A stretch of 64,000 nt of DNA from Halobacillus hunanensis (GTDB lineage: Bacteria > Bacillota > Bacilli > Bacillales > Halobacillaceae): assembly GCF_900166655.1 (NCBI RefSeq), contig NZ_FVZB01000006.1, positions 372,001-436,000 on the forward strand. Direction: 5' to 3'. A program made the position numbers and the translations under genes. Positions 2,729 through 54,063 of the stretch are shown in pieces; the first letter of the stretch is position 1; the number at the start of each line of letters is the position of its first letter. Under the pieces are notes generated by a model, which saw only the letters and a program-made list of their open reading frames with translations, had not been told where the DNA came from and did not search any database.

Positions 2729-2857
2729 CCATCCCTTCCCTAATAGATTTCATGTATAGCAACTTTCCACAGTTATATTATACATCCAAGTGATAGAATC
2801 TTCAGTCATTGAAGATCCATTTAGTACTACTTTTCGAAAAATTTCTCATTATAATGT

Positions 2858-2898
2858 GTCCTGAAGTGAGCCTTGAACTCTTCGGCTCACTTCAGGAC
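2858..2898 (-). terminator. Hairpin after the giant surface-protein gene
   Basis: A perfect 15-bp stem (2858-2872 and 2884-2898) with an 11-base loop begins six bases past the stop of the giant gene. No strong T tract follows on the minus strand, so termination may be Rho-assisted or the stem may stabilise the 3' end. Confidence 0.65.
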
Positions 2899-2903
2899 AG
2901 GTA

Positions 2904-5900
2904 TCATTCTCTTCTCTCATTAATCCGTACTTCCTCTGAATTCTCAATCCGAATATCTCGGTTTATCGTCCGGTTCACGCTAATGATTCCTGACAAATTC
3001 AGATTTCCCTGGGTTTCACTAGTACCTCCATTTCCAGAAGGTCGCACCATCCAATCAAAAAGACTCTGTAATTCTGTCAGCAATTCATCTAACAGGATAG
3101 GGAACGTGGGTGAAGGTTCAGGCTGCCGTGTTTGTTCTAACGGAATGGTAACCCTGACTGTCTCATCACTTTCTAAATTAACAGATGTCGCTTTCGATAC
3201 GTAATTAGAGGCAGAAGCTATCAAAATAAATTCCCCAGGAGCTAAATTGGTAAAAACAAATTCACCTTGTTTGGATGTGGTAACGATTTCGATAACACGA
3301 CCCCGAGTAGTTTTCAACGTAACGGTTCCCTCAAAAACAGGCTCCATAGTAATTTCATTTATGACCCTGCCAATAATCGTACCTGGTTGGCTAATCACTG
3401 CTAAAGTAAAGTTTGCCGTTTCTTCTTCGCCAGGTATTAACAGAATAGTGCTGGTTTCGGGTAAATAACCCGTGGCAGAAGCCGTGGCCATAAAGGTCCC
3501 TGAAGGCAGATTCCCTATTATATAGAAACCATTTTCATCCGTTACTCCCCGACCAATGATATTACCAGGCTCATCAAATACGGTTACAGAGCCATTTGAA
3601 ATTGGAATCCCCTCATTACTAAGAATTTGCCCGTTAAGACGAGCAGGATTACGAGGCAGCTGAAAATCAACGGTCACTTCTGAATTCGCTGCAATAGTAA
3701 CAGTTTGTGATCCTGACGCAAAGCCGAAAGCAGATGCCCTTACTGTATAATCTCCTGGGATGATTCCTCTAATATTATAGGTTCCATCAACTTCTGTAAC
3801 TGTCGTGACTACAGGACGTGTCTGCTGGTCAAATAAGACGACAACAGCTCCTGCAATCGGGTTTCCATTTACCTCCTCTGTCACTGTACCATTTATACTG
3901 CCTGGGTTAGCCGTTAAGGTGAAATTAATGGTGACAGTTTCTCCTGCTTCAACTGAAAAAGATTCCACTTCATTCGCAAATGAAGGGTTGAAGGCAGTGA
4001 TGCTGTACGAACCAGCTCGCAAGCCTTGGATGCGATATCGCCCTTCCGCATCTGTTGTAGTTCTGGCAATCACGGCACCATTTGCATCAATAACTCGGAT
4101 CAGAGTATCTGGAACTGGTACACTGTCTTCATTTGCCACTACTCGCCCGAGAGCTGTAGCAGGATTAGGGAACAAAGCAAAATTTTGTTCAGTTGTTTCA
4201 TTACTTACAGCCTGAGCACTGGCCGCTTCCGATCCGAACCCTGGCGCACTCACTATAATGGTATAAACCCCTGGGCGCAGACCACTAACAAGGTATCTCC
4301 CATCTGCATCCGTTTCAACAGAAGCAACAATCGGCCCAGATGGACTTAATTGCCTCACTTGAACAAGTGCGTTTGGTACCAGCTCTCCTGTTTGTGCATT
4401 CGTTACTGTTCCTGCAAAACTTCCAAGCAAAAATGCAACGGTAAAATCAATTGTCTCCCTTTCACCTGGGACTAATGAGATCGTCTTCGTTTCGGTTGTA
4501 AACCCAGGGGCTGAAGCTACAACTATGAAAGTTCCAGCCGGTAAATTCCCAATAAAATACTCACCGTTGAGATCAGTGACACCTCTTCCGACAATATCAC
4601 CGCTCGCCATAGACGTAACCAACGAGGCAATCTGTCCGTCCTGGGAAACAACCGTGATGGATGCATTTCTAATCGGCGTTCCCTCTTCTGTCCTCACTAT
4701 TCCAGTGATTTGAGCTGGGTTCCTAGCAAGCTGAAAATTCGCAGTGGTTGTTAAATTCGAACGAATCGAAGCGGTTTGAGTACTTGCGGCAAATCCAAAA
4801 GCTGCTGCTTTAACTGTATATGAGCCAGGAGCCAGGCCACTCACTTCATATATTCCATTTACGTCTGTAGTTGTGGATAACAGTGGTTCATTGGACAGAT
4901 CATAAATCACGACATCCGCTTGAGCTATCGGATCTCCACTTATTTCATCCAGCACTGTACCGGTAAGGGTTCCTGGATTTCCTTCCAGTACAAAATCTAC
5001 TGTCTGAATAAGACCAGGACTTAGTGTAACCTCCCTTGACTCACTTTGGAATTCAGGATTAAAGGCAACCACTTGGTAAGTCCCGGGATCAAGACTATCT
5101 ACAGTGTATAAACCACTTTCATCTGTTTGGACTGTATCTACTACTGTCCCGCCTGCATTAATAACTTGGATCACAGTATTTGGAATAGGGTCACCTGTAT
5201 TAACACTGGTTACAGAACCTTCAATACCTGCCCGGGTAGGGAACAGTATGAAATCCTGAATTGTGGTTTCTCCTCCTGCGACTTGTTGACTTGCATCTGC
5301 TGCACCAAATCCTTCTTTGCTAACTACAACCGTATAAACACTCGGAGTTAATCCAGATACCGTATAGCGGCCATTTTCGTCTGTGGTAGTTTCAAAAACG
5401 ATAGTACCCGCTGGACCAAACTGCCTGACTTCAATAGTCGCATTTGGAACAGGGTCACCCGTTAAACCGTTCGTCACTAGTCCGGCCAGGTTTCCTAAAC
5501 TTCGTCTTAATACAAAATCGATCCTTTGTTCTTCTCCAGGAGATAATGTTGTCGTAATACTTTCCGATATATACCCTGGTTCAGCAGCTGTAACTGTAAT
5601 AGTTCTGGGTCCAGATGGTAAATTTCCAATGACATAATTCCCATTTGGCCCTGTTAAACCTCTCCCGACGATATTTCCATCAGCATCGAACACGGAAATA
5701 CCTGCATCTATTAAAGGGATACCTTGTTCATTTGTAACGGTACCAAAGATTTGCGCTGGGTTCCTCTCCAGGGCGAAGTTGGCCTCACTTGTGCTGCCAG
5801 CTAAAACAATGACTTGCTGAGCACTAGTTGCATACCGAAGAGCGGAGGCGCGAACTGTATATGTCCCTGGTTCAAGACCAAAAATGGTATAATCCCCAGT

Positions 5901-8900
5901 TTCATTAGTGATCACAGTAGCAATCGGTCGATCCTCATGTTCTGATGCAATCACTACGGATCCAGTAAGCGCTTCACCTGTGATAGCATTAGTTACCCTG
6001 CCAACGATTGTGCCAGGATTCCCTTCAAGAACAAAATTAACAACAGCTGTTTCACCAGGATCAACGGTAAATTCTCTTAGTTGACTTTCATAATTTGGAT
6101 TTAAGGCAATGATGCTATATGAGCCTGCATCAAACTGACTGATCAGGTAAGATCCATCAATATCCGTTTGTACTTCTTTAACAGGTGCGCCGACACCATT
6201 AACTAAGCGAATCAACGTATCTGATAGAGGATCCCCTTCACTAGAAGTAACTCTTCCCTGAACATTTGAGGAACCAGGAAACAAGATTAATTCTTGAAGC
6301 GTTGTCTGATTACTGTTTACCTCATCGCTTGCTTCCGCCGTACCAAAACCTTCACGGGTTGCCACAACCGTATAAATTCCTGGGGGAAGACTGTTTACAA
6401 CATAATTTCCTGATTGATCTGTAATCGCCGTAGCAATGACTGGTCCTGCTGGGCCCAGTGTACGAACTTCGATCAGAGCGTTGACAACAGCTTCTCCTGT
6501 AATCCCATTCGAAACAACTCCGGACAACCTTCCTGGGTCAGGTTCCAGGAAGAAATCGTCAACAACAATTTCGTTAGGATCCAGATCCGCACTAGCTATT
6601 TGTGTTGAAAAATTAGGTGCCGCTGCTGTCACTTGATACAATCCAGGGGATAAAGTGAACAACGCGTAGTTCCCGCTTGATTCCGTCAACACGGTGGCGA
6701 CAACAGCACTGGTGAAATCAGTAACTGTAACTGTGGCCCCCGCAATCGGGTTTCCGGTTCTTTGGTTCACAACCATCCCTTGTAACGTTCCAGGATTTAC
6801 GGTAGGCGACAATGTTGTCAAAGATACTTCTCCAGCTTCAATAATAACTGCTTTGGAATCACCACCAAAACCTATTCTAGAAGCTGTAATATTCAAAGTA
6901 CCCGGGGGAAGATTGGAGATCACAAAATTTCCGCTTTGATCAGTTGTTTCAGTAGCTAAAGTGTTTCCATTGAGGTCCTTTGCCGTAACAAGTGCACCCT
7001 CGATCCCCATGTTAGTGGAGGTGTTGACTACAGTGCCCGAAACACTTCCCACACCTCGTTGAAGCTGAACCGTAGCATTGGTCACTTCACCTGCTGTTAC
7101 AAGAGCCGGAACAACAGCTGCCTGAAAGCCTTGCGCTGTTACATTGAGTACATATCGTCCTGACTGAAGGAAGGATAAAGTGAAAGCCCCGTTTGAATCT
7201 GCCAGAATGGTTTGTAAAACAGCTCCATTTTCATCGACTAGACGGATGGCTATATTCTGTCCGATTATCAAATTACCTTCTTCATCCACAACAGTTCCAC
7301 TAATTGTTCCAAACAAAGCACTCAATCCTAAATTAGCTATGGTAACTTCGCCACTGGTGATTATCGCTCCGACCGAACTAGATGAAAACCCTGCTTTTCC
7401 TGCTATTACAGTATAGGAACCCTCTGACAACCCCGTCACCACATACTGACCATCCGAATCAGTCACTACAGTCCTTAATGTAGTACCAATTGCATTAAGC
7501 ACATTCACGGTGACACCTTCTAACGGGTCGTTATCTTGCAGGCTAGTAATCAGACCGCTAATGCTCCCTGGATTTGGTGTTAGCATGAAGTTCACATCAT
7601 TCACTGCTTCCCCGCGTGTAAGTGTAATCCCGCCTATCACATTAGCGTACCCAGTGGCTGTGACGAGTATAGAAAAAGTTCCCGCCGTCAAGTTTGAAAT
7701 TTGGTAGATTCCATTCACATCTGTTGCCGCGCTTCCAAGTACTACATTATTCGTGTTTATGACTTTTACATTAGCAGTTGTAACAGGGTTTCCATCAAAG
7801 TCTGTTACTCTTCCACTGATCAATGCCGGGTTCGGAACTAAAGCTATATTTGTCGTTGAAACCTGGTTGGATTCTACTGTGCTTCCCTGGGAATTGCGTG
7901 CATAATCTGTTGCCGATGCAGCCACTGTGTACGTCCCCGGCGCCAATCCACTTATTAGGAAGTTGCCAAGGTGATCTGTAACCGCTCGAGCAATCGGATC
8001 AATTTCAGAAGCTCCAAATACAAGAACGAGCGCTCCGACTAACGGTGAATTTGTAGTAACATCGGTAACTTTCCCAGTTATCCTTCCAGGTTCTGAGTTC
8101 AAAGTAAAATCCATGACTACTACTTCATCTGGTGTAGCTGTAAACGATAATTCTCCCCGTTGGAACACAGGGTTAACGGCGACTAAACGATATTGCCCTG
8201 AACGAATTCCTGTTATCCTATAGAAACCATTTGCATCCGTCTCAACGGATTGAAGCAAAACACCAGCATCGTTGTATAGACGAACTAAGGTATCAGGCAA
8301 TGGGGAGCCCGTGGAGGCTGACCTCACTGTTCCTTCGACCTCAGCAGGATTTTCTGAAAGTAACAGGTCTGTAGAAACCGTCTGATTAGCAGGTACATTT
8401 ACCGAAGCTTCACCGGCCCCAAAAGAGTCAGCGGTCGCAATTACGGTGTAGACATTAGGTGCCAAATTAGGGATGACATAAATCCCTTGCGCATCTGATA
8501 ACGTCGTAGCAATGATCGGACCAGAAGGAGATAAGAAACGAGCCACTATCGTGGCGCCGCCAATTGGTTGGCCAGTTTGTTGATTTATAATCGTGCCCTG
8601 GATCGTTCCAGGCTGTGGGGTGAGAGCAAAACTTAATACCGTTTGGATTCCTGACCTAATTGTAAAACTTGCTGTTTGAGTGGAAAATCCATCAGCACTT
8701 ACTATCGCGCGATAACTCCCAGGGTTAAGACCTTCCACTAAAAATTGACCGAACCCGTCTGAGACCGTATTCGTGACTTGTGACCCTGTTTCAGTCGAAA
8801 TAAGCACAACACTTCCAGAAACTGCATTTCCTGTCTGCAGGTCTGTAACCAGCCCAGTCAAAGAGCCTGGATTCGGAGATAGACGCAATGTTACAATCGA

Positions 8901-11900
8901 GGTTTCTTCAGGGTCCAGCATAACCGTTGCTGTATCAGATCCAAAATTCTCCGCAGACGTACTGACAACCAACACCCTAGGTGGTAGTCCCTCGACTGTA
9001 AATTGCCCATTCTCCCCAGTCACTTCCCTTGAAATGAAAATGCCTTCCGGGGTCGTGACTGTTACAAATGCCCCTTTAATTCCTTCTCCGTTTGTTTCGC
9101 TAAGCACACTTCCTGTAAGAGTTGCTTGGGCTGGGCTTAATCTTATAGTTACGCTCACCGTCTCAGCAGCCACAACATCTACCGGGACTGTATTCGCTGT
9201 AAATCCTGGGGCAGTCACGTTTAGTAAATACCTTCCCGGTGCCAAATCTGACACCGAAAATGTCCCGCCCGATTCCGCTAGAAAAGTTTGAAGCAATATA
9301 CCTGTACCGTTAAATAATTTAACTTCAATATGATTTCCTGTCACCGAATTGCCGTCTTCATCCACTATGCTGCCCGCGATATCCCCTACCGTTCTGGAAA
9401 GGGTAAGATCCGCTGCAGAGGTTTCATCGCTGGCCACAATAACACCAACTGACGCAGTCGAGAAGTTATCAGCACTGGCAACGACTGTGTAACTTCCTGG
9501 AGCTAAGTCACGAACGAGGTAATTTCCGAACGGACTCGTCACGACAGATGTAATAAAGGCCCCGTCACTAGTTCTTATTAACACAACGCTTCCTGAGATA
9601 GGGCGACCATTTGTATCCGACACCTGACCGCTAATTCCACCAGGGTTGGGCAGAAGTTGAAAGTTTAGATCATTCACCGTTTGGCCTGCCTCCAGGGAAA
9701 CACCGCTTGTTACCGAGGAAAAATTAGGGGCCGTGACAATTACACTGTACGTACCCGGTGGCAGGTTTCCAATTGAATAATCCCCATTGTTATCCGTTGT
9801 TCCTATACCAATAATAGTTTCATTGGCATCAAAAATTTTTATTGTGGCATTAGACAACGGGTTTCCAGCCTCATTTGTTACGGTTCCATTAATTATTGAC
9901 GGGTTCGGGTTTAATTGAATAGCAACATCAGTTATCTGGTCGGCTAAAACGGTGGCTCCAATTGTTGAAGTCTGATAGTTCAGCGCAGCTGCCGTCAATA
10001 TATACTGACCAGGTGCCAGTGAATTAAAACGAAATTGACCAGTTGGGTCAGCTGTTGTAGAAGCAATAAAAATATTATTGGAAGTATATAATTGAACACT
10101 TGCTCCGAATATCGCCGGATTAACGATTCCACTAATGGCTCCCGGATTTTCACTTAAACGAAGGATAATAGGAGTGGTGAGATTGGGCTGTACAACTGCC
10201 CCAATAACGCCCTGTTGCAATCCTTGAGCACTGGCTGTAACTGTATAATTTCCAGGCGCCAGCCCCGTAACATTATAATTACCCTGTGAGCCAGTGATAA
10301 CAGTATCCACTACTAGGCCACTAGCATTGGTCACTCGGACAATCGCCCCTGGTACCCCTTCGCCTGTTACATCATTAAAAATAGACCCGGAAATCGATCC
10401 CGGGGATGGGCTTAAATCGAGGCGAACATTCTCCACCTCTCCCGGATTTAAGCTGACTGTCGCTGAATTAGTTTGGAAGTCAGATGCCATGACAACTACA
10501 ATATAAGTTCCTGGTGCTAAATTATTTACAACATAGTTCCCGTCTGGATCAGTAAAGGTCACGGCTATAATTGAACCATTTATATCTGTTATTCTTATCT
10601 CTATCCCAGCACCGACGATCGGTTGGCCCGTGACACTATTAAAGATGACACCCATAATGGCAGCAGGATTTAACAAAAGAGAAAAATCGATGACAGCCGT
10701 TTGATCTGCCCCCACATTAACTCCCGTTACTTCAGTTTGGAAATTATCAGCTGTTACAGTAATGGTATAGTTATCTGGCGATAATCCTGTCACGTTATAC
10801 ATGCCACCATTATCGGTTACTGTTCTTGAAACGACAGTAGATCCCTGATCCCGAACCACTACCGTAGCACTGGAGATTGCCGCTCCTTCCTCACTTGTAA
10901 CGGTGCCTGCGATCCCTCCAGGGTTGAGCTGTAATTGAGCATCCACTACCGTTACTTCATCAGCCACGATTAGAGCTCCTACCGAATTTGTCGCAAAAGT
11001 ATCGGCACTGACTACTAACGTATAAGAGCCTGGAAGAAGGTTTGCAATGGTATAAATTCCATTCTCATCAGTTACTGTTGAGCTAACGAGCGTATTGTTT
11101 GAAAACACCTTAACAAATGCACCGGCAAGTACTGTGCCATTTGTGTCTGACACAGTCCCCGTAATTGTCCCTGATATTCTTGCTAATTCTGCATCAACTA
11201 TAGTCGTTGAGTCAGATTGAATCATGGCGCCGATGATTTTTGTTCCAAATCCATCTGCGGTAAATCTTACGGAATAATTTCCTGGGGGAAGAGAATCAAC
11301 AAAGTATGTTCCAGCCTCATCAGTGATGGTGGCTGCTACAGTTATGCCTTCACTGTTTAAAACACTTACTCCCGCTCCATTAATAGCATCTGTACCAGCG
11401 GCTGTTACGTTTCCGGTCAATACACCTGGGCTTTCGGCAAGTGCGGCATCAATGGTTACAGATTCACCTGCCGCTAGTGTACTTCCTATAATTTGAATTG
11501 CAAACCCCGGCGTACTGAATCTGATTCGATAGGTTCCGGGTGCCAATTGGGTAATAAAGTACAACCCTGTACCGGCCGTTGTCGTACTGACGATAACATT
11601 ACCAATTTCATTTAATACTTCAACCATAACACCAGATAGAGGATTTCCGTTTTCATCTGTTACGATCCCCTGTACTGATGCTGGGTTTAATGGAAGGGAA
11701 AAGTTCGTAGTTTCTGTTTCATTGGGGGCGATATTCACACCGGTCGTTACGGATTGTAACCCTTCGGCAGATGCAGTCAGATTATAAGAACCGGGGACTA
11801 AATCTGAAAAAGTGTACTGCCCATTTCCATTCGTTATGGTTTGCTCAACCAGAGTTCCAGCTGTATTACTTAAAAAAAGCGCAGCATTTGAAACAGGAGT

Positions 11901-13250
11901 CCCTATTTCATCTGTGACAACACCGGAAATCTCTCCTGGTAACGGGGTTAATATGGTAATCAATCGCGTAATATCTCCTGGAATGACGCTTACTAGTTGA
12001 TTGGTGGTCATATAGTCTTCTTCCATAAACGCAACTGTATAATCACCCGGGGGGACCTCTGTAAAACTGTAATCTCCATTCTCACTTGTAGTCCCGACAG
12101 CTACTACCTCACCGTCCTGTTTCAGCTGCACTGATACCCCGCCCAAAGGAAGTCCGTTCGAACCATCCAGTACCGATCCTACAATTCCTCCAGTCGCCCG
12201 AACTACAATGTCAGTACTTGCGGAGGCAGGCTGGATCTGTTTCCCTGTAAAACTGTCGATGCCATTTACCGTAGCTGTTTCCAGCGTTCTTGAACCTTCC
12301 CTAGTGAAGTACCCCGTCACACTAAATGTCAACGTTACGGAATTACCAGGAGCCACATTCCCAACGTTCCAGCTTAATGTATTTGAGGATGAGTCAAACG
12401 AAGCACTTCCCGAACTAACATTTTGAAGGGTAAAGTCAGATAGGATATCCAATCCTATGAGGTCCCTGACAAAAACAGTGGTTGCTTGACTTCTTCCAGG
12501 ATTGGCGACTGTAATTCTGGCTGTGTAGGAGGCTGATTCTCCCGCTGTAACCGTGCCAGAACCTGAAACTAACGTTTTAGTTATTTCCAATTCAGCTCTT
12601 ACGTTTGCTTCGACTACAGGCTCAGGTTCGGAAAAAGCATTGATAAATTGAAATCCTTCATTTGTTTGAAGCGAATCCTTGTTGAAATTATTAGCATTCG
12701 TAGAGGTGAAGGAGATCAACTGAAGCGGTGTATTTTCTGTAATGTTTAGAAAGGAAAATAACGTGCTGGCTGGAATGAAGAAATCTATAAAAAAATCCGC
12801 ATTCCCACTAATATTGGATCCTGCTGGACTCACTCTGGCAATATCGAAGTTTATAATTGGCTGACTAAAATTAGGCGACCCTCGACCATTTGTTCCTTCA
12901 GCTTGATCATTCCAAGTATTAAACTGTTTACTAGTGTTTTGAATTAATTCCAATCGTCCTGTTTTCCCATTAACAGCTAATACCCATTCATAGGTTCCGG
13001 ATACGCCATCCGTATTAAATAATATTCCCCACACAAAATTAGCAAAAGCCGTTCTGGCCGCATTTCTCGGTTCACCGTTCACCCTTAACCGAAAATACAC
13101 ATTGACTCCATCGTACGCATAATAAAAGGAAGGAAACGATGAATTTCCTACCAGATCTGTCCCTGTAGGGGATTCATCCCCGCTATTATCAAAATACGGC
13201 TGTCCGTTAAGAGAAACAGCCGAAAACTGATTATCATCTGGAAACGGCAT
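2904..13250 (-). CDS. Giant protein of ~35 tandem carboxypeptidase-regulatory-like (beta-sandwich) domains
   Basis: About 3448 residues if it begins at the ATG at 13250, which has AGGAG eight bases upstream; a GTG at 13259 overlaps that ribosome site and is less likely. Residues ~1-215 form a unique beta-rich head. Residues ~220-350 look like a DUF11-type adhesin domain. Residues ~353-3370 contain about 35 repeats of about 86 residues of the CarboxypepD_reg/transthyretin-like type, recognisable by G-x-V-T-D, D-x-x-G-x-Y and L-x-P-G-x-Y-x-V. The last 75 residues are non-repetitive. There is no signal peptide, membrane segment, LPxTG or S-layer anchor, and I saw no cysteine. The protein is acidic and lysine-poor. 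The repeats are organised in 8-domain and 4-domain super-units. A structural cell- or spore-surface fibre is likely; function is inferred only. Confidence 0.9.
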   Translation of the reverse strand: MPFPDDNQFSAVSLNGQPYFDNSGDESPTGTDLVGNSSFPSFYYAYDGVNVYFRLRVNGEPRNAARTAFANFVWGILFNTDGVSGTYEWVLAVNGKTGRLELIQNTSKQFNTWNDQAEGTNGRGSPNFSQPIINFDIARVSPAGSNISGNADFFIDFFIPASTLFSFLNITENTPLQLISFTSTNANNFNKDSLQTNEGFQFINAFSEPEPVVEANVRAELEITKTLVSGSGTVTAGESASYTARITVANPGRSQATTVFVRDLIGLDILSDFTLQNVSSGSASFDSSSNTLSWNVGNVAPGNSVTLTFSVTGYFTREGSRTLETATVNGIDSFTGKQIQPASASTDIVVRATGGIVGSVLDGSNGLPLGGVSVQLKQDGEVVAVGTTSENGDYSFTEVPPGDYTVAFMEEDYMTTNQLVSVIPGDITRLITILTPLPGEISGVVTDEIGTPVSNAALFLSNTAGTLVEQTITNGNGQYTFSDLVPGSYNLTASAEGLQSVTTGVNIAPNETETTNFSLPLNPASVQGIVTDENGNPLSGVMVEVLNEIGNVIVSTTTAGTGLYFITQLAPGTYRIRFSTPGFAIQIIGSTLAAGESVTIDAALAESPGVLTGNVTAAGTDAINGAGVSVLNSEGITVAATITDEAGTYFVDSLPPGNYSVRFTADGFGTKIIGAMIQSDSTTIVDAELARISGTITGTVSDTNGTVLAGAFVKVFSNNTLVSSTVTDENGIYTIANLLPGSYTLVVSADTFATNSVGALIVADEVTVVDAQLQLNPGGIAGTVTSEEGAAISSATVVVRDQGSTVVSRTVTDNGGMYNVTGLSPDNYTITVTADNFQTEVTGVNVGADQTAVIDFSLLLNPAAIMGVIFNSVTGQPIVGAGIEIRITDINGSIIAVTFTDPDGNYVVNNLAPGTYIVVVMASDFQTNSATVSLNPGEVENVRLDLSPSPGSISGSIFNDVTGEGVPGAIVRVTNASGLVVDTVITGSQGNYNVTGLAPGNYTVTASAQGLQQGVIGAVVQPNLTTPIILRLSENPGAISGIVNPAIFGASVQLYTSNNIFIASTTADPTGQFRFNSLAPGQYILTAAALNYQTSTIGATVLADQITDVAIQLNPNPSIINGTVTNEAGNPLSNATIKIFDANETIIGIGTTDNNGDYSIGNLPPGTYSVIVTAPNFSSVTSGVSLEAGQTVNDLNFQLLPNPGGISGQVSDTNGRPISGSVVLIRTSDGAFITSVVTSPFGNYLVRDLAPGSYTVVASADNFSTASVGVIVASDETSAADLTLSRTVGDIAGSIVDEDGNSVTGNHIEVKLFNGTGILLQTFLAESGGTFSVSDLAPGRYLLNVTAPGFTANTVPVDVVAAETVSVTIRLSPAQATLTGSVLSETNGEGIKGAFVTVTTPEGIFISREVTGENGQFTVEGLPPRVLVVSTSAENFGSDTATVMLDPEETSIVTLRLSPNPGSLTGLVTDLQTGNAVSGSVVLISTETGSQVTNTVSDGFGQFLVEGLNPGSYRAIVSADGFSTQTASFTIRSGIQTVLSFALTPQPGTIQGTIINQQTGQPIGGATIVARFLSPSGPIIATTLSDAQGIYVIPNLAPNVYTVIATADSFGAGEASVNVPANQTVSTDLLLSENPAEVEGTVRSASTGSPLPDTLVRLYNDAGVLLQSVETDANGFYRITGIRSGQYRLVAVNPVFQRGELSFTATPDEVVVMDFTLNSEPGRITGKVTDVTTNSPLVGALVLVFGASEIDPIARAVTDHLGNFLISGLAPGTYTVAASATDYARNSQGSTVESNQVSTTNIALVPNPALISGRVTDFDGNPVTTANVKVINTNNVVLGSAATDVNGIYQISNLTAGTFSILVTATGYANVIGGITLTRGEAVNDVNFMLTPNPGSISGLITSLQDNDPLEGVTVNVLNAIGTTLRTVVTDSDGQYVVTGLSEGSYTVIAGKAGFSSSSVGAIITSGEVTIANLGLSALFGTISGTVVDEEGNLIIGQNIAIRLVDENGAVLQTILADSNGAFTLSFLQSGRYVLNVTAQGFQAAVVPALVTAGEVTNATVQLQRGVGSVSGTVVNTSTNMGIEGALVTAKDLNGNTLATETTDQSGNFVISNLPPGTLNITASRIGFGGDSKAVIIEAGEVSLTTLSPTVNPGTLQGMVVNQRTGNPIAGATVTVTDFTSAVVATVLTESSGNYALFTLSPGLYQVTAAAPNFSTQIASADLDPNEIVVDDFFLEPDPGRLSGVVSNGITGEAVVNALIEVRTLGPAGPVIATAITDQSGNYVVNSLPPGIYTVVATREGFGTAEASDEVNSNQTTLQELILFPGSSNVQGRVTSSEGDPLSDTLIRLVNGVGAPVKEVQTDIDGSYLISQFDAGSYSIIALNPNYESQLREFTVDPGETAVVNFVLEGNPGTIVGRVTNAITGEALTGSVVIASEHEDRPIATVITNETGDYTIFGLEPGTYTVRASALRYATSAQQVIVLAGSTSEANFALERNPAQIFGTVTNEQGIPLIDAGISVFDADGNIVGRGLTGPNGNYVIGNLPSGPRTITVTAAEPGYISESITTTLSPGEEQRIDFVLRRSLGNLAGLVTNGLTGDPVPNATIEVRQFGPAGTIVFETTTDENGRYTVSGLTPSVYTVVVSKEGFGAADASQQVAGGETTIQDFILFPTRAGIEGSVTSVNTGDPIPNTVIQVINAGGTVVDTVQTDESGLYTVDSLDPGTYQVVAFNPEFQSESREVTLSPGLIQTVDFVLEGNPGTLTGTVLDEISGDPIAQADVVIYDLSNEPLLSTTTDVNGIYEVSGLAPGSYTVKAAAFGFAASTQTASIRSNLTTTANFQLARNPAQITGIVRTEEGTPIRNASITVVSQDGQIASLVTSMASGDIVGRGVTDLNGEYFIGNLPAGTFIVVASAPGFTTETKTISLVPGERETIDFTVAFLLGSFAGTVTNAQTGELVPNALVQVRQLSPSGPIVASVETDADGRYLVSGLRPGVYTIIVSAPGFGSEAASAQAVSNETTEQNFALFPNPATALGRVVANEDSVPVPDTLIRVIDANGAVIARTTTDAEGRYRIQGLRAGSYSITAFNPSFANEVESFSVEAGETVTINFTLTANPGSINGTVTEEVNGNPIAGAVVVLFDQQTRPVVTTVTEVDGTYNIRGIIPGDYTVRASAFGFASGSQTVTIAANSEVTVDFQLPRNPARLNGQILSNEGIPISNGSVTVFDEPGNIIGRGVTDENGFYIIGNLPSGTFMATASATGYLPETSTILLIPGEEETANFTLAVISQPGTIIGRVINEITMEPVFEGTVTLKTTRGRVIEIVTTSKQGEFVFTNLAPGEFILIASASNYVSKATSVNLESDETVRVTIPLEQTRQPEPSPTFPILLDELLTELQSLFDWMVRPSGNGGTSETQGNLNLSGIISVNRTINRDIRIENSEEVRINERRE

Positions 13251-13278
13251 AACGCTCACTCCTATAAAATAAAATGAC

Positions 13279-13287
13279 TACATTATG
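13279..13287 (-). promoter_or_regulatory. Candidate sigma-K -10 element for the giant gene
   Basis: On the minus strand the nine bases read CATAATGTA, a perfect match to the B. subtilis sigma-K -10 consensus CATANNNTA, about 30 bases before the ATG. A good -35 AC at the usual distance is not obvious. The divergent DUF2642 genes carry an equivalent motif. Confidence 0.45.
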
Positions 13288-13318
13288 TCTATTCACACTG
13301 TGAAGAAATGAATAGACA
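13286..13318. promoter_or_regulatory. Inverted repeat in the giant-gene promoter region
   Basis: Nine-base arms TGTCTATTC (13286-13294) and GAATAGACA (13310-13318) are perfect reverse complements around 15 bases. They lie just upstream of the candidate -10 element. A further GAATAGATA-like half site follows near 13331. This is compatible with an operator for a transcription factor, unidentified. Confidence 0.45.
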
Positions 13319-13426
13319 CCTGTGGCAGGAGAATAGATATTTACACCGTTTCTTTTATCAAAATTGAAAAAACTAATAATCTTATAGGTGATGTGCGGAA
13401 TTATCTAGTAAGTTATGTGTACGCCC

Positions 13427-13456
13427 GTACGATTGAATATAAGAAGACATATGGTA
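13427..13456 (+). promoter_or_regulatory. Candidate sigma-K promoter for the DUF2642 pair
   Basis: CATATGGTA at 13448-13456 fits the sigma-K -10 consensus CATANNNTA. An AC dinucleotide at 13429-13430 is about the right distance upstream for the sparse sigma-K -35 element. It lies about 30 bases before the ATG at 13488. Prediction from motif only. Confidence 0.45.
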
Positions 13457-13487
13457 AATAGAAACTATCATAGAAAGGATGAATACA

Positions 13488-13853
13488 ATGGCAAATCTAA
13501 CAGAAAGTCAGGCTAACCTATTAAGATTAGCGAATCAATTGTCCCAAAGCCTCATGACTGGTGACAGAGATCCTGATTTTTCACTTGACCTACCGGGATT
13601 AGATTTTGATTTTAATTTGGATATAGGAGAAGACGCATCACCAGATACTCCAACACCTCCTGCAACAACGCCTGACACACTAACAGAAGTATTGCTAAGA
13701 TTACGAAACGAACAAGTGGAAATTACCACTCCATTTGGTACTGTTACCGGCACACTACTGGTCGTGGAAAGCGACTATGTCGTAGTAGTGGAAGCTTCTG
13801 GCGCTCAAGTACTTGTCCGTATAGATAAAATTGAACTAGTCAGTGAATTATAA
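13488..13853 (+). CDS. Small DUF2642-type, spore-coat-like protein
   Basis: A 121-residue acidic protein with an N-terminal helical segment, a D/P/T-rich linker around residues 35-70 (DLPGLDFDFNLDIG then a PxTPPATT-type stretch), and a C-terminal domain resembling DUF2642/YuzF: FGTVTGTLLVVESDYVVVVE followed by IDKIELV. The ATG at 13488 is chosen because AAAGG lies nine bases upstream, while the upstream ATG at 13479 directly abuts that site. DUF2642 proteins are largely confined to spore-forming Bacillaceae. It is transcribed away from the giant gene and paired with the next small gene. Confidence 0.75.
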   Translation: MANLTESQANLLRLANQLSQSLMTGDRDPDFSLDLPGLDFDFNLDIGEDASPDTPTPPATTPDTLTEVLLRLRNEQVEITTPFGTVTGTLLVVESDYVVVVEASGAQVLVRIDKIELVSEL

Positions 13854-13866
13854 GGGAGGGATATAA

Positions 13867-14079
13867 ATGTTTGAAGCAACCTTTACTGCTGAACTCGCCA
13901 CTCATGTTGGCACAAGGGTTGAAGTAGCTACCGATAACAATTTAATTGAAGGTCTTCTCTCAACAGTTACTGAAGATTTAATTTTAGTTATTGAGGTAGA
14001 TAGTGGATACGGTGATAATAATAAGCTATATATTTCTGTTGATGCGATCAATTTCGTTCGTTTACTTGCAACAGTATAA
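13867..14079 (+). CDS. Small DUF2642-like protein
   Basis: A 70-residue protein beginning 13 bases after the previous stop, with GGGAGGG as ribosome site. It resembles the C-terminal half of its neighbour: a small beta-rich unit with ELATHVGTRVEVATDN, an EGLLSTVTEDLILV turn, and a final VDAINFVRLL that parallels IDKIELV. It has no signal peptide or membrane segment. The pair probably forms a two-gene operon ending at the terminator at 14114. A structural or coat role is inferred from family and context. Confidence 0.7.
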   Translation: MFEATFTAELATHVGTRVEVATDNNLIEGLLSTVTEDLILVIEVDSGYGDNNKLYISVDAINFVRLLATV

Positions 14080-14342: not shown

Positions 14343-15284
14343 TTAAGGTTTCTTCCTGCTGACAGCATCACTAATTTTATTGGTGATTCTCAGGGTTTTC
14401 ATCCCATCCTCCCCTGATACCGTCGGCTCTTTATCAGACTGGATACAGGTTATAAAATCCATTAATTCAACACTTAGCGGCTGAATCGTATCGTCAACTT
14501 GTATAAGTTCAGTAATCGTTACAGAACATTCACTCGTATTCTCTTTCATCATTCGAGTGATTTTGATTTCCCTATTCAGAAGATCTGCTTCAATTAGTGC
14601 ATCCTCGGTAAGAATTTGAATCGTTCTTGCTTTACGTTTGGATTTGAAACTTGCCGTAAGCTGTGCTGTCACCCCTCGTGAAAATTCGGTGATCACTACA
14701 GCATGCTTTGGGGTGTCTTCCATGACTTTGCCCAACGCATGGAATTCTACTATTTTATCGTCTAGAAGCTCCTTTAGAATATACAGATCGTGAATCATTA
14801 AGTCTTTTACCACATCCACATCTTTGACCCTTTGATTGTATGGACTCATTCTGTGAAAATCGATCGCTATGATGTTCTGACTTTCTACTTCTTTTTTAAG
14901 AACTTGAATGAGTGGGTTAAACAGCTCTATGTGCCCTACCTGAAGTTTAACCCCTGTTTTTCTGGCTTTGTTAACTAAATCTTCCGCCTGATTAATCGTA
15001 CTTGTAATCGGTTTTTCCATTAGCATGTGCACATTGTGTTGAATACAAGTTAACCCAATACCATAATGAAATTCAGTCGGCACAGCAATGCTGACGGCAT
15101 CCACTGAGTTTAATAGGTCATTCATAGATTGAAATGGTTTAACCTGGTATTTTTCAGCCATTTGATGACATCGTTCATGATCGTTGTCGTATATCCCGAC
15201 AAGCTGGCAATGATCATGCATCGACAGATAAGTTCGCACATGATTTTCTCCCATATTCCCTGTTCCAATTACACCGACCTTCAT
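14343..15284 (-). CDS. Gfo/Idh/MocA-family oxidoreductase, probable UDP-GlcNAc(A) 3-dehydrogenase
   Basis: 313 residues from the ATG at 15284, which has GAGGAG seven bases upstream. The N-terminal Rossmann fold has VGVIGTGNMGENH; EKPI near residue 95 carries the conserved catalytic lysine. VGHIELFNP and DVDVVKDLMIHD resemble the WbpB/WlbA/GnnA branch, which oxidises the C3 hydroxyl of UDP-GlcNAc or UDP-GlcNAcA before transamination. The other enzymes of that pathway (6-dehydrogenase, aminotransferase, hexapeptide acetyltransferase, 2-epimerase) lie within 12 kb, which supports the assignment. It is divergent from the glycosyltransferase operon. A myo-inositol-type dehydrogenase is the main alternative. 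Confidence 0.75.
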   Translation of the reverse strand: MKVGVIGTGNMGENHVRTYLSMHDHCQLVGIYDNDHERCHQMAEKYQVKPFQSMNDLLNSVDAVSIAVPTEFHYGIGLTCIQHNVHMLMEKPITSTINQAEDLVNKARKTGVKLQVGHIELFNPLIQVLKKEVESQNIIAIDFHRMSPYNQRVKDVDVVKDLMIHDLYILKELLDDKIVEFHALGKVMEDTPKHAVVITEFSRGVTAQLTASFKSKRKARTIQILTEDALIEADLLNREIKITRMMKENTSECSVTITELIQVDDTIQPLSVELMDFITCIQSDKEPTVSGEDGMKTLRITNKISDAVSRKKP

Positions 15285-15316
15285 AAAAAATCTCCTCACT
15301 CTTATAAATACTAATG

Positions 15317-15430: not shown

Positions 15431-16357
15431 GTGATACATGTCTTGTTTATCGCAGAAGATACATCAGCCATGTTACACAAGAACTTTTACTATTTAGAAC
15501 AGGAACTTGCTAAATCAGTCAACTTAACCGTATGGAGAAAGCCTGGTCATATCGACTACATTTTGAAACAAATAACTAAACGTCCGGACTTTATTCTACT
15601 GCTGCATGATGTGGACAGAAAAATGGCTCCAACGATTAAAGGGCTTTCTACCACCAACATTCCAACAGGGCTATTTGTAAATGACGTTCACCGTCTGACT
15701 AATCTTAGACGAAACTTTATAACAAAAAATAAGATTGATTATCTGTTTACGATCGTGCGAGACAAATTTACAGAGACCTATCCAGAATTCAAAAATAAAA
15801 TGGAATGGTTCCCTCATTTTGTTAATACAGAAATATGTAAGGACTATGGATTAGAGAAAGAGATCAACTTGTTAATGATGGGAGCAGTCAACGACAACTT
15901 TTATCCTTTAAGGAGAGATATTGTGGAGGCGTATAAAGGAAATGAGGAGTTCGTGTATCATGACCATCCGGGCTATCGACATTTCAACAAACAAGATGAA
16001 CGCCAGCATTTAATTGGAGATTCGTATGCCCGGGAAATCAACCGAGCAAAAATTTTTTTAACAACTCCCTCTATTTTAAATTACCCAGTCATAAAATATT
16101 TCGAAGTGCTAGCCTGCAGGACCCTGCTCCTTGCGCCTACCTTTAAGGAATTAGAGGACCTCGGCTTTATTCCATGGGTCCATTTTGTACCTATCGATGA
16201 AACCAACTTTGAGGAACAAGCAGCCTATTATCTAGCGAATGAAACAGAACGGGAGACCATTGCTGATCAGGGATACGATTTCATCCGTCAAAAGCATTCG
16301 CTTACAGTACGTACTAAACAGCTCGTGGACCGGTTAGAAGAAATACTTTGTAAATAA
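15431..16357 (+). CDS. CgeB/YkvP-like glycosyltransferase
   Basis: A 308-residue protein with a GTG start nine bases after AGAGGAG. The C-terminal half resembles the Glyco_trans_1_2 domain found in CgeB/YkvP proteins: NLLMMGAVND, YRHFNKQ, REINRAKIFLTTPS and PVIKYFEVLACRTLLLAP, the last being the usual nucleotide-sugar-binding end of a GT-B fold. B. subtilis CgeB belongs to a sigma-K operon that glycosylates the outermost spore layer, which is suggestive here. It is first in a plus-strand operon with the hexapeptide acetyltransferase. Acceptor and donor are unknown. Confidence 0.75.
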   Translation: MIHVLFIAEDTSAMLHKNFYYLEQELAKSVNLTVWRKPGHIDYILKQITKRPDFILLLHDVDRKMAPTIKGLSTTNIPTGLFVNDVHRLTNLRRNFITKNKIDYLFTIVRDKFTETYPEFKNKMEWFPHFVNTEICKDYGLEKEINLLMMGAVNDNFYPLRRDIVEAYKGNEEFVYHDHPGYRHFNKQDERQHLIGDSYAREINRAKIFLTTPSILNYPVIKYFEVLACRTLLLAPTFKELEDLGFIPWVHFVPIDETNFEEQAAYYLANETERETIADQGYDFIRQKHSLTVRTKQLVDRLEEILCK

Positions 16358-16374
16358 GAAGGAGGTTTTTTACG

Positions 16375-17055
16375 ATGTCTAACATTCCTAACAGTGTACA
16401 GCTTGGCAACAACGTAGTCATTGAGGAAGACGTAATCATAGGAGAACATGTGGTGATTGGTCATAATACCATTCTGTTAAAAGGAACCCGAGTTGGTGAT
16501 CATGTCACCATCGGCGGCAACTGTGTGCTTGGCATTCAACCTAGCATCAACCAGCGAATGCGTAAAATTGCAAAGATGTACACACAGCTTATCATCGAGT
16601 CCGGGACCCGAATCGGTCACGTCGCTTCCATCTACTCAGGTACTCACATTGGAAAAAATGTATTTATTGGAGATCATGCAAGTATTAGGGAGAATGTCAG
16701 AGTTGGTGAGGAATCGGTGGTGGGGAGAGCTGCGATTGTTGAACTAAATACGACTATCGGAAAGTCCTGTACCATTCAAACACTGGCTTATGTTACAGGT
16801 GATACGACGCTTGAAGATAATGTGTTTCTTGGCCCTTGCGTATCCATGTCCAATGATAAGTACATGGGGGCTCAAGATTATTCCCTGAAAGGTCCGCATA
16901 TTAAAAAAGGAGCTAAAATCGGAAACAACGCTTCCCTTTTACCAGGAGTGACAGTAGGCAGCAATACTATTATCGGTGCGGGAGCTGTAGTCACGAAAGA
17001 TGCGGAAGATAATATTGTGGCAGCAGGTGTTCCAGCTAAAAAAATAAAATCTTAG
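16375..17055 (+). CDS. Left-handed beta-helix (hexapeptide) acyltransferase, WbpD-like
   Basis: 226 residues, ATG preceded by AAGGAGG. Nearly the whole protein is made of hexapeptide turns of the [LIV]-G-x-x-x-x type (NNVVIEEDVIIGEHVVIGHN, KIGNNASLLPGVTVGSNTIIGAGAVVTKD), the fold of trimeric acetyl-CoA-dependent N-acetyltransferases. The final AAGVPAKKIKS is standard for the family. In the UDP-2,3-diacetamido-mannuronate pathway WbpD/WlbB acetylates the 3-amino group made by the aminotransferase; this gene is the natural candidate. A sialic-acid-type or O-acetyltransferase is an alternative. Confidence 0.8.
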   Translation: MSNIPNSVQLGNNVVIEEDVIIGEHVVIGHNTILLKGTRVGDHVTIGGNCVLGIQPSINQRMRKIAKMYTQLIIESGTRIGHVASIYSGTHIGKNVFIGDHASIRENVRVGEESVVGRAAIVELNTTIGKSCTIQTLAYVTGDTTLEDNVFLGPCVSMSNDKYMGAQDYSLKGPHIKKGAKIGNNASLLPGVTVGSNTIIGAGAVVTKDAEDNIVAAGVPAKKIKS

Positions 17056-17076
17056 TCTCAAAATGAGGTGAAGTGG

Positions 17077-17348
17077 ATGTCATCTGAATCGATTGATAAT
17101 ATTAAAGTGATAAAACAGGATCAGTTAGAGGCCATTGGTAAGAAAATAGGTAATGAATGATATGTCCCTATGTCATTTCTTGAAAAAGGATTCAACTTAG
17201 AAAAAGTATGGGTTGAAGCGCAGAATCATGGGGATATCATGTCGGCCACATTCATTTACTGGATGCTCTGAATTCGATCGAAAAAGATCCAAAAATGAAT
17301 GAAGCATTAACAAGATGGAAGGGTTATTTAAATGGGATAACCAAGTAG
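17077..17348 (+). pseudogene. Decayed short gene with one in-frame stop and one frameshift
   Basis: An ATG at 17077 opens a frame of 27 codons ending in TGA at 17158. The same frame continues without a new start (YVPMSFLEKGFNLEKVWVEA) to about 17240. A frameshift near there would restore a third coding segment, GHIHLLDALNSIEKDP to ITK, closing at TAG 17346-17348. Joined, they would make a protein of about 90 residues. I do not recognise the family. It lies between the acetyltransferase and the next glycosyltransferase, on the same strand. Confidence 0.55.
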
Positions 17349-17406
17349 CAAAGAAAAGTAAGGGATTGCCTAATGTGGGTGCAAGCTGCTCAAGAAGGGG
17401 TGGGTA

Positions 17407-18633
17407 ATGGTGTCAAAAAGGATCTGCATGGTTGTGGCCTATCATCCGTTTCTAGATGCGAGAATTTTCAGGAAGGAAGCTAAGAGTCTACAGAAAAAGG
17501 GATACCATGTAACGATGATTGTTCCGAAAAAGAATGGATATCTATTCGATATTGATGGGACCCCATTTACAAACCGCTTTAGAAACAAAGTATTTACCCA
17601 TGAGGGAATAAGAATCGTCACTTACAATTGGGAGACTTGCAGAAATCAATTAAGTAAAGTGTTGAGTGATGAAAATGCTTGGGAAAGACAGGGGTTTACC
17701 AATCAATTAACACAGCTTGCTATTCAGCAAAATGCAGACATTTACCATACACATGAGTACCTTTCTCTTTTTGCTGGAGTAGGTATAAAACGATTGATGA
17801 AGAAAAGAAAAGGCAGAGAGGTGAAGTTAATTTATGACAGCCATGAATTAACCCCCGATCCTCTGAGCCCCAAGTACACAGAGCAACATAGAAACAAGTT
17901 GAAAGAGAAGCTTCTTATTATGCTTGATGAGGTGGATTATTTGATTACCGTTTCAGATTCCATTAAATCATGGTATCTGTCTCACAAACCTAGTCTGCCT
18001 GTGGAAGTGATCTATAACTCACCCCCGCTCGCGAAAAACTATCAGCCTAAAGAATATAATTCTAATAGATTAACGGTTGGCTATGAAGGAAACATCGATG
18101 ATAAAAAAGGGATGAAGGAAAAGATGACTGCTATCACAGAGATATGTTCAAAAAAGATAAACTTCCAATTTAAGATTATGGGAGGGAGCCGGCACGATAA
18201 TCCCTTTGATATCCCGAAACACCTTCAGAGAAACCTATCGTTAACCGGCTGGGTTGATTACCTTGATATTCCAAAGCATATGAAAGATATTGATATTGGC
18301 TGGGTTGATTTGGAAAATGTAGAAAACTCGCTTAATTTCAATTATGCCATGCCGAATAAATTCTTTAGTTATTTGAACAATGGCATTCCTGTTCTAGTCA
18401 ATAAATGCCATGATATGGAGGCTTTTATAAACAAACATCAGTGTGGGTATGTGATAGATAAAACGAACGTAACTGCTCAAGATTATGCAGATGTTTTACT
18501 GGAGCTTAGTAAAAACAAAACCACCTTGAAACAGATGAGCCGCAATGGACGCAAGGTAATGGAAAGCCTGTACTCATGGGAGAGGATGGAAGATCGGTTA
18601 CGAAACGTTTATCAGCAGCTTCTTGCAAGATAA
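17407..18633 (+). CDS. GT4-like glycosyltransferase, paralogue of the 22764 gene
   Basis: 408 residues. It is a GT-B type glycosyltransferase with N-terminal HPFLDARIFRKEAKSL, central IYDSHELTPDP, and PVEVIYNSPPL in the inter-domain linker. The C-terminal donor-binding part has AMPNKFFSYLNNGIPVLVN. It is strikingly similar along its whole length to the gene at 22764, so the cluster contains a duplicated glycosyltransferase. The ATG at 17407 follows AAGGGGTGG. The donor sugar cannot be deduced. Confidence 0.85.
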   Translation: MVSKRICMVVAYHPFLDARIFRKEAKSLQKKGYHVTMIVPKKNGYLFDIDGTPFTNRFRNKVFTHEGIRIVTYNWETCRNQLSKVLSDENAWERQGFTNQLTQLAIQQNADIYHTHEYLSLFAGVGIKRLMKKRKGREVKLIYDSHELTPDPLSPKYTEQHRNKLKEKLLIMLDEVDYLITVSDSIKSWYLSHKPSLPVEVIYNSPPLAKNYQPKEYNSNRLTVGYEGNIDDKKGMKEKMTAITEICSKKINFQFKIMGGSRHDNPFDIPKHLQRNLSLTGWVDYLDIPKHMKDIDIGWVDLENVENSLNFNYAMPNKFFSYLNNGIPVLVNKCHDMEAFINKHQCGYVIDKTNVTAQDYADVLLELSKNKTTLKQMSRNGRKVMESLYSWERMEDRLRNVYQQLLAR

Positions 18634-18677
18634 ATTGCCGAACATCCCTCCTCGGCAAAAAGAAAGGAAAGATCACT

Positions 18678-19682: not shown

Positions 19683-19731
19683 AGTGCCCAGGGTCTTTCT
19701 CTTTGGGTAGAATGAGTTGTTGGTACACAGC

Positions 19732-20814: not shown

Positions 20815-20869
20815 AATATACTCCTCTCAAACCTTTTTCTCGTCAAGCTTAATTTTTGAGGATTTCTGG

Positions 20870-21832: not shown

Positions 21833-21857
21833 GATCTGTCACTCCTCTTCTTTATCA

Positions 21858-22613: not shown

Positions 22614-22763
22614 TTTTGGTCTCTCCCAACCTGTCATGGTTAACGACATCCGCAATTCTTATTGAAAACAACAGATCTTTTAATTGTATGAATAATCCAT
22701 GTGGGGTGTTAATACGTTATTAAAAGGAATCCCATGTGGTTTGTACTAAAGTGGAGGCTAATC

Positions 22764-23984: not shown

Positions 23985-24158
23985 CCCCTCCCACAAAGGG
24001 GGATGGGACTGGAATTTCCCTCACATTTTGTCACCTATAAACCTTTCATTCCTGCATGGAAAAATAGAATAGTCTTAGAAAAAGTCCAAACATTTTGTTT
24101 TTCAACCTCATAAATTATGAAAGAACTTCTAATTGAAATACAGAAATGAGGTTGAAAC

Positions 24159-25460: not shown

Positions 25461-25486
25461 AAAAGATAGAAAGGAGGTTGTATCAA

Positions 25487-26611: not shown

Positions 26612-26634
26612 GAAAATGTCCATTGTTCTTTTAA
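26597..26634 (+). terminator. Intrinsic terminator after the aminotransferase
   Basis: AAGAACAATGGA (26597-26608) and TCCATTGTTCTT (26619-26630) form a perfect 12-bp stem followed by TTAAT. The left arm lies within the last codons of the aminotransferase. It separates this gene from the convergent glycosyltransferase. Confidence 0.75.
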
Positions 26635-54042: not shown

Positions 54043-54063
54043 TACATTCTCTCCCTGAACGAG

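Follow-up and report, generated by a model that had tools for sequence, protein, structure and literature searches.

A head-defined family of giant repeat proteins in spore-forming Bacillota, with a proposed role as spore-surface stalks

Introduction

How spores stick, clump and spread is set by their surfaces. To our knowledge, the spore fibers known so far are either polymers, as in the ENA pili, or collagen stalks, as in BclA. Here, we analyze a 64,000-nucleotide stretch of the Halobacillus hunanensis genome (contig NZ_FVZB01000006.1, positions 372,001 to 436,000; referred to as the window), in which a gene at 2904-13250 on the minus strand encodes a giant protein of 3448 amino acids without a signal peptide. 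We propose that this giant is probably a spore-surface stalk, which the mother cell would produce and place on the developing spore, with the C-terminus as its anchor.

Several described systems come close to such a protein. ENA pili are spore-surface fibers, as is proposed here for the giant, and excerpts of one report describe F-ENA subunits carrying DUF4183 as well as F-Anchor-3 of Clostridium aceticum, in which DUF11 domains are linked with a domain of the exosporium lattice (PMC11952670). ENA are polymers of repeated subunits, whereas the giant is a single very long chain with a head of its own and CarboxypepD_reg repeats. According to the same excerpts, the BclA-type glycoproteins of the collagen nap form a long stalk on the spore surface (PMC11952670), and sugar genes likewise lie near the giant. 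In contrast to BclA, the window giant lacks Gly-X-Y collagen repeats (longest run 2), and its anchor would be C-terminal if our reading is right. DUF11 domains are also reported, in excerpts of a further paper, for the appendage proteins of Clostridium taeniosporum, whose gene cluster has sigma-K-type promoters, and for CrdA-C of B. cereus (PMC5749712). These excerpts mention no CarboxypepD_reg array, and the C. taeniosporum proteins CRD1 (564 amino acids) and CRD2 (413 amino acids) are far shorter than the giant.

Two proteins of the outer spore layers are of particular relevance. Excerpts of published work place fusions of BMQ_0737 and CotX to GFP outermost on Priestia megaterium spores (PMC4656864), and excerpts of another study indicate that plasmid pBM600 of strain QM B1551 seems to carry essential exosporium genes (PMC4674009). 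The BMQ_0737 profile (NF052457) spans 199 positions and contains neither the head nor the repeat array of the giants. Similarly, the CotX of H. hunanensis, a member of the CotX/CotV crust proteins (PF07552, Coat_X), is encoded by a frame of about 200 codons and has no giant array.

Architecture of the giant protein

The reading frame of the giant (2904-13259, minus strand) comprises 3451 open codons, of which the first is GTG. This GTG at 13259 was rejected as the start, because a ribosome site and the homologues agree on the ATG at 13250, three codons inside the frame. The resulting protein has a mass of 356.7 kDa, an isoelectric point of 4.1 and not a single cysteine. From its N-terminus, it consists of a head (residues 1-208; 12627-13250), an Ig-like domain recognized in a structure model (residues ~213-352; 12195-12614), a head-to-tail array of CarboxypepD_reg (PF13620) repeats (3126-12191) and a C-terminal tail of 73 amino acids (2907-3125), all on the minus strand. 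A terminator-like hairpin follows directly past the stop codon (2857-2899, minus strand; -31.0 kcal/mol for a 60-base stretch).

Counting the repeats by two routes gave the same number, namely 35 PF13620 stretches and 35 units in our own segmentation, the latter spaced 81-97 amino acids apart. An earlier note, made from the sequence alone, had described 'about 35 beta-sandwiches' and a protein without signal peptide or sorting motif, and both statements were borne out. Mean identity between repeats was 35-36% at lags of 4 and 8, compared to 29-32% at other lags up to 12, with no rise at lag 12. Our statements on signal peptides and membrane segments derive from hydropathy and pattern searches rather than a dedicated predictor. 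By these measures, the first 45 residues contain no signal peptide (best 12-residue value 0.29, versus 2.34 in a distant homologue that possesses one), the best 19-residue value anywhere in the window giant is 1.92, and a pattern search found no LPxTG motif. Among 68 relatives, the hydropathy of the first 45 residues reaches up to 2.09 (L042), within the conserved head.

The head did not resemble any named family among the best 25 of 31 Pfam families, and a PDB sequence search with it returned a single match at E 0.86. DUF4183 and DUF3992, the domains of ENA subunits, were found neither among those best 25 families nor in a scan of the tail. In the structure model of head and Ig-like domain (predicted local distance difference test, pLDDT, 90), residues 218-351 resemble the Ig-like domains of integrin alpha (Z 12.9, root-mean-square deviation 2.8, 127 aligned residues), and the Foldseek and VIA matches were taken up by this Ig-like part, which we take to be DUF11-like.

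A family defined by its head

A contig scan with the whole giant as query returned nothing. Scanning a named collection with the head alone, in turn, yielded at least 78 loci, with 80 relatives among the matches listed. Seventy-three loci belong to Bacillota, one to a cyanobacterial metagenome-assembled genome (MAG) and four, at 29-34% identity, to distant matches in Ignavibacteriae and Patescibacteria-type MAGs. The cyanobacterial head shares 59% identity with the query and probably stems from a mis-binned contig. The Bacillota carriers comprise Fictibacillus, Alkalihalobacillus, Rossellomorea, Metabacillus, Priestia, Halobacillus, Thalassobacillus, Brevibacillus, Paenibacillus, Cohnella and Marininema, genera that we take to form endospores, and also include short clostridial forms. 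The giants of this family, which is defined by the head, measure 1,895-7,457 amino acids and are almost confined to spore-forming Bacillota. The window protein shows the family traits: its head of ~208 amino acids lies at the very N-terminus, it lacks a signal peptide, and it has a long CarboxypepD_reg array. Among 61 genomes (H. hunanensis and 60 relatives), six contained head matches: its own, four strong others, one of which holds two copies, and a weak one.

Length varies widely across the family. The shortest intact giant has 1,895 amino acids, the Brevibacillus giants have 2184 in all four loci, and two further genomes, of which one was read, contain open frames of 6,778 codons. According to annotated coordinates, two giants encoded on P. 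megaterium plasmids reach 7159 (NZ_CP085418.1, 16859-38338) and 7457 amino acids (CP109763.1, 35351-57724). The clostridial members have one repeat, the window giant has 35, and the P. megaterium giants are estimated to have at least 80. The head occurs in seven plasmid records; five of them label the gene only as 'carboxypeptidase regulatory-like domain-containing protein', and the other two annotate no gene there.

Between close relatives, by comparison, the arrays are mostly of equal length. In 10 of 14 compared pairs, the alignment was free of gaps over 1903-3428 amino acids; the other four pairs had gaps of 1, 2, 5 and 34 columns. These mostly equal lengths therefore argue for selection on length. 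The ratio of nonsynonymous to synonymous substitution rates (dN/dS) was 0.05-0.21 for the whole gene across the 14 pairs, showing that the giant genes are under purifying selection, and the head was the part of the gene with the lowest ratio in all 14 pairs (0.01-0.12). Short or broken head-gene frames occur at eight loci of the named collection (L044, L071, L088, L091, L093, L094, L095 and L097), and so the head gene seems to be often lost.

Spore-coat modules at the C-termini

We then surveyed the tails of 57 intact relatives, that is closed frames of at least 1200 amino acids with L098-L100 excluded. Fifteen of the 57 carry, by motif, a fused BMQ_0737-like tail, and at four loci in three genera (L031, L044, L045, L092) a BMQ_0737-like gene lies downstream of the giant. 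Against NF052457 (cut-off 71), the fused tail of a Halobacillus giant reached 87.6 bits, and the stand-alone gene immediately following the Thalassobacillus giant reached 199 bits. In a tail alignment (A6), all 15 members, comprising 14 fused tails and the Thalassobacillus gene, matched NF052457 at E<=0.001. Matches to the same profile over its cut-off were also found inside frames of 3197 and 3127 amino acids in two further relatives.

Other giants end in different modules. The two P. megaterium plasmid giants terminate in Coat_X (PF07552; 65.6 and 38.1 bits, cut-off 27), and twelve members from Fictibacillus, Alkalihalobacillus and related genera share a 60-amino acid tail that is weakly CotZ-like (hhalign probability 19 and E 0.0012 in one comparison, over 32 columns; as a yardstick, head versus CotZ gave probability 0.2 and E 0.3). 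Cysteines are concentrated at this end of the proteins: across the 57 intact relatives, the final 230 amino acids contain 17.9 cysteines per 1000 residues and the remainder 0.56. In the 15 members with a fused BMQ_0737-like tail, 159 of 160 cysteines sit in that tail.

PDB sequence searches yielded no matches for the BMQ_0737-like protein and only unrelated ones for the CotZ-like tail (E 0.62 or worse), and a structure model of the BMQ_0737-like tail (pLDDT 83.7) had no PDB match at E<=0.001. The BMQ_0737-like tail of one Halobacillus giant (L062, 18809-19378) looks circularly permuted, with the C..VxxVxDW strand coming last, and the same order was seen in some other proteins.

Sigma-K-type boxes upstream of the family

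The gene of the window giant is preceded by a putative sigma-K-type -10 box, CATAATGTA (13279-13287, minus strand), located 37 bp before its start. As claimed in the earlier note, the motif CATANNNTA is present in both directions, at 13279-13287 on the minus strand and at 13448-13456 on the plus strand, the latter 40 bp before the start of a DUF2642 gene at 13488. Both strands of the 64 kb together contain 25 CATANNNTA sites, and the expectation is ~0.011 per upstream slot on one strand.

For a family-wide analysis, five loci without a start and five fragments or doubtful loci were excluded, and the remaining 69 upstream regions were dereplicated to 58. An unguided expectation-maximization motif search in these regions (-80 to -16) returned CATAtanTAa at a log-likelihood of 51.2, compared to 25.5-28.9 in six sets of mononucleotide-shuffled regions, for which only 40 rather than 150 seeds were used. 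To judge from its sequence, this motif has the form of a sigma-K -10 box. The search for sigma-K boxes suggested in the earlier note was thus positive: CATANNNTA occurred in 14 of 58 family upstreams versus 7 of 205 control upstreams from other genes at the same loci (p 5.4e-6), and CATANNNT combined with a -35 mAC at 14-18 bases occurred in 5 of 58 versus 3 of 205 (p 0.015). The sigma-A box TATAAT, which would have pointed toward vegetative expression, was not enriched (3/58 versus 22/205, p 0.31). The exact CATANNNTA box is absent from most family members.

Co-occurrence with sporulation genes

In a sample of 398 genomes from the class, the head matched in 18, with 16 strong matches (H. hunanensis included) and two weak ones. 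In agreement with the earlier expectation for a phylogenetic profile, all 16 strong matches lie in genomes positive for SpoIVA, which was found in 268 of the 398 overall (compared by eye). In a phylum sample, also of 398 genomes, five head matches were obtained, namely H. hunanensis itself, a 380-codon form (locus L089 by its coordinates) and three weak matches. The H. hunanensis genome encodes SigK (over cut-off), SpoIVA, CotZ and CotX.

The clostridial member L089 stands beside sporulation genes. A SipL/SPOCS gene lies just upstream (33.3 bits, Pfam cut-off 23.6), together with a second match below the cut-off (18.1 bits), sigG is ~2 kb away (503 bits), and a BMQ_0737-like gene matched weakly and below the cut-off (25.7 bits). 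At L087, L089 and L090, small cysteine-rich genes recur downstream of the short head protein (two genes, by eye); those scanned from L087 and L089 had no Pfam or NCBIfam match.

A proposed spore-surface stalk and its alternatives

The architecture, promoter enrichment, fused coat modules, selection and distribution described above were computed directly. From here on, we infer localization, orientation, stalk form, head binding and glycosylation. A sigma-K-type promoter would drive late transcription of the giant gene in the mother cell, and the protein would stay in the mother-cell cytoplasm before its deposition on the spore, which would account for the lack of a signal peptide. Its C-terminus would serve as the anchor, with an outer-coat module (BMQ_0737-like, Coat_X or perhaps CotZ-like) joining the crust or exosporium lattice. 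The cysteine-poor, transthyretin-like repeat array would function as an extended spacer with a defined length. The conserved head would occupy the free, outward-facing end, where it may bind to a surface, to a glycan or to another spore. With domains typically measuring 3.5-4.5 nm, 35 repeats would give a stalk of ~120-160 nm. The products of a neighboring, sigma-K-type sugar cluster would probably glycosylate the spore surface and possibly the stalk itself. Of the spore-surface locus put forward in the earlier note, the part concerning a surface protein made in the mother cell is well supported by the boxes, the coat modules, the distribution in spore formers and the L089 neighbors, and it applies far beyond the window, while the pairing of giant and DUF2642 genes into one unit did not hold.

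We give an even chance to a broader proposal, in which the giants represent a third class of endospore surface fiber beside ENA pili and collagen naps. Such fibers would be single-chain stalks with a length set by repeat number, exchangeable C-terminal modules (CotX of the crust, BMQ_0737 of the exosporium, possibly CotZ/ExsY) and a conserved head at the tip. Linked sugar genes would probably provide for their glycosylation, and the genes of the stalks would in part reside on plasmids and be lost frequently. If this is true, the giants would rank with the largest proteins so far proposed for a spore, their length being written in the gene, and would provide candidate spore fibers for Paenibacillus, Brevibacillus, Rossellomorea, Priestia and marine Bacilli. 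The natural fusions, moreover, suggest which coat proteins may serve as docking modules. In a literature search (titles and abstract beginnings, among the matches listed), the giants were nowhere described as spore proteins, and combining CarboxypepD_reg with spore terms gave nothing relevant among the matches listed.

Several observations weigh against a spore-surface stalk. With respect to the window copy, its tail has no Pfam or NCBIfam match, NF052457 included, and its own genome contains no BMQ_0737 match at all; no -35 AC is well placed by eye, where one would be expected 16-17 bases upstream of the box; and the giant has decayed in a sister species, with several further broken copies in the family. 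With respect to the anchor, two of the fused A6 tails fall below the 71-bit cut-off when scored singly (63.8 and 49.1 bits), the Coat_X model found nothing in the 57 intact relatives (best E 0.53), and 18 of these end in an acidic run (17 from Paenibacillus or Cohnella, one from Marininema). Another 11 of the 57 fall into the 'other' or Brevibacillus tail classes, two of them (L045, L092) having a BMQ_0737-like gene downstream. Array length is not always fixed, as seen from the pair with 34 gap columns and from the two plasmid giants, which differ by 298 amino acids. On the motifs used, sigma-K is not safely separable from sigma-E. The class-sample profile is weak by genus, because the 16 strong matches span only four genera, and one of the two weak matches lies in a SpoIVA-negative genome. 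Finally, distant head-like domains occur in proteins bearing signal peptides (L007), and, except for the BMQ_0737-like downstream gene, no neighbor is conserved in position across genera in the 40 largest clusters.

One alternative is that the family forms spore stalks while the window copy is a relic, a giant without an anchor that is released, inert or decaying. We consider this unlikely. A model derived from eight Coat_X domains, namely those of CotX from H. hunanensis and relatives and those of the plasmid tails, scored the final residues of the window tail at 6.4 bits over ~15 residues, above all 2000 shuffles. The likeness was not significant when the whole protein was searched, PF07552 itself (gathering score 27) did not match the tail, and of two direct alignments between tail and Coat_X, one was reached by 3 of 1000 shuffles and the other by 112 of 1000. 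What remains of a Coat_X-like domain is no more than its first strand, with the terminator-like hairpin directly after it, in a protein without cysteine whose counterpart in the sister species is broken. The missing database match of the tail, with its weak Coat_X-like end, and the decayed sister copy mark the window gene as accessory. A relic, in turn, fits poorly with an intact frame of 3448 codons that has a ribosome site and a promoter box, or with the 18 of 57 relatives that lack a recognizable anchor, as the three such pairs tested have dN/dS values of 0.06-0.09. The anchor of the window copy is uncertain; a CotX-like one would fit a CotX-type host, which we offer as a suggestion only.

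The decayed giant of the sister genome (G007; L020, 8154-9380) stands at the syntenic place, with its start and C-terminal end still recognizable. Across nine genomes of the genus (G000-G008), CotX and the DUF2642 pair are both present in four, and a different four have a match to BMQ_0737, that of G003 below the cut-off. CotX and BMQ_0737 never occur together in these nine, which hints at two alternative spore outer layers; both are present in G037, from another family.

A stalk would also be dispensable if the repeats were cross-linked or packed into a coat or crust layer, as a structural component that does not project. Cysteine-rich coat modules at the C-termini and a mostly fixed length would suit such a component too, but the repeats themselves are almost cysteine-free, the window protein is acidic, BMQ_0737 and CotX lie outermost in P. 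megaterium according to excerpts of the published work (PMC4656864), and the low dN/dS of the head suggests an exposed binding end. On balance, we regard the layer as rather improbable and a stalk as the better account of the giants.

A further alternative makes the giant, the DUF2642 pair and the sugar cluster one co-evolved unit. A DUF2642 protein of 121 amino acids (13488-13853, plus strand; start by ribosome site; PF10842 26.4 bits, cut-off 22.7) is followed by a 70-amino acid partner (13867-14079, plus strand), which adjoins it in all five genomes with the pair (68 amino acids in G042). The earlier note had counted both as DUF2642 proteins; this held for the first, while the second has no PF10842 match at the cut-off and is weakly like the DUF2642 domain of its partner (29%, E 0.007 in one comparison). 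Beyond a Gfo/Idh-type dehydrogenase gene (14343-15299, minus strand), a sugar/glycan cluster extends over 15431-27887 on both strands and encodes glycosyltransferases, a hexapeptide transferase, a UDP-GlcNAc 2-epimerase, a dehydratase, a UDP-sugar dehydrogenase and a DegT aminotransferase. In the window, CATANNNTA boxes accompany giant, pair and sugar cluster alike, being found within 85 bp of the start for 5 of 15 genes in 13.2-27.9 kb versus 0 of 28 elsewhere (Fisher 0.003, for a comparison chosen after seeing the data). Sugar genes also follow the P. megaterium plasmid giants (2-epimerase, polysaccharide biosynthesis protein, short-chain dehydrogenase/reductase (SDR) and sulfotransferase), and a 44% relative of the glycosyltransferase at 15431-16357 lies ~1 kb away from L097, the broken head gene of Scopulibacillus.

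Phylogeny argues against such a unit, which we therefore consider quite doubtful. The DUF2642 gene is present in 5 of the 61 genomes, none of the other giant carriers among them, and only one of these five has an intact giant. Three congeners keep SDR, DUF2642, partner, Gfo/Idh and sugar genes together without an intact giant, two of them with a rearrangement beside the SDR gene; of these three, G007 has the decayed copy, and the remaining two contained no giant remnant at the sensitivity used. At E<=1e-25, the 12 window sugar proteins had any match in only 2 of the at least 78 loci, and the 2-epimerase alone matches both plasmid clusters (33%), with the dehydratase matching one (25%). A conserved unit of giant and DUF2642 genes was rejected, as pair and giant occur in largely different genomes; the adjacency of the two is old within the clade, yet by phylogeny they do not form a functional unit.

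Lastly, it is highly improbable that the giant serves vegetative cells as a surface adhesin or a matrix protein, exported non-classically or released by lysis: CarboxypepD_reg arrays are common among secreted adhesins and a distant relative has a signal peptide, but the enriched boxes are of sigma-K rather than sigma-A type, coat modules sit at the C-termini, and strong head matches come, among those listed, almost only from spore formers.

The DUF2642 pair and the sugar cluster

The DUF2642 pair belongs with the sugar cluster and has a predicted sigma-K-type promoter of its own. Its -10 box, CATATGGTA (13448-13456, plus strand), has an AC 17 bases upstream (13429-13430), and the arrangement AC-N16/17-CATANNNTA precedes the DUF2642 gene in all four genomes of the genus that have the gene; it is absent in G042, from another family. 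A literature search found no paper combining DUF2642 with spore. The Gfo/Idh-type gene carries a CATAGAATA box in 4/4 genomes of the genus compared.

Given the concentration of CATANNNTA boxes there and the boxes shared across the genus, the sugar cluster resembles a sugar locus of sporulation, which agrees with the tie to spores drawn in the earlier note. The CgeB-like glycosyltransferase said to open it corresponds to 15431-16357, for which a PF13524 match was confirmed, this match being the one ground for the CgeB label. At the place of window positions 17056-17406, the sister genome contains an additional gene of ~340 codons (L020, 13198-14220), which the window lacks. Further along the window, positions 49567-55296 on the minus strand hold WXG100-type secretion genes (YukC, FtsK/SpoIIIE-like).

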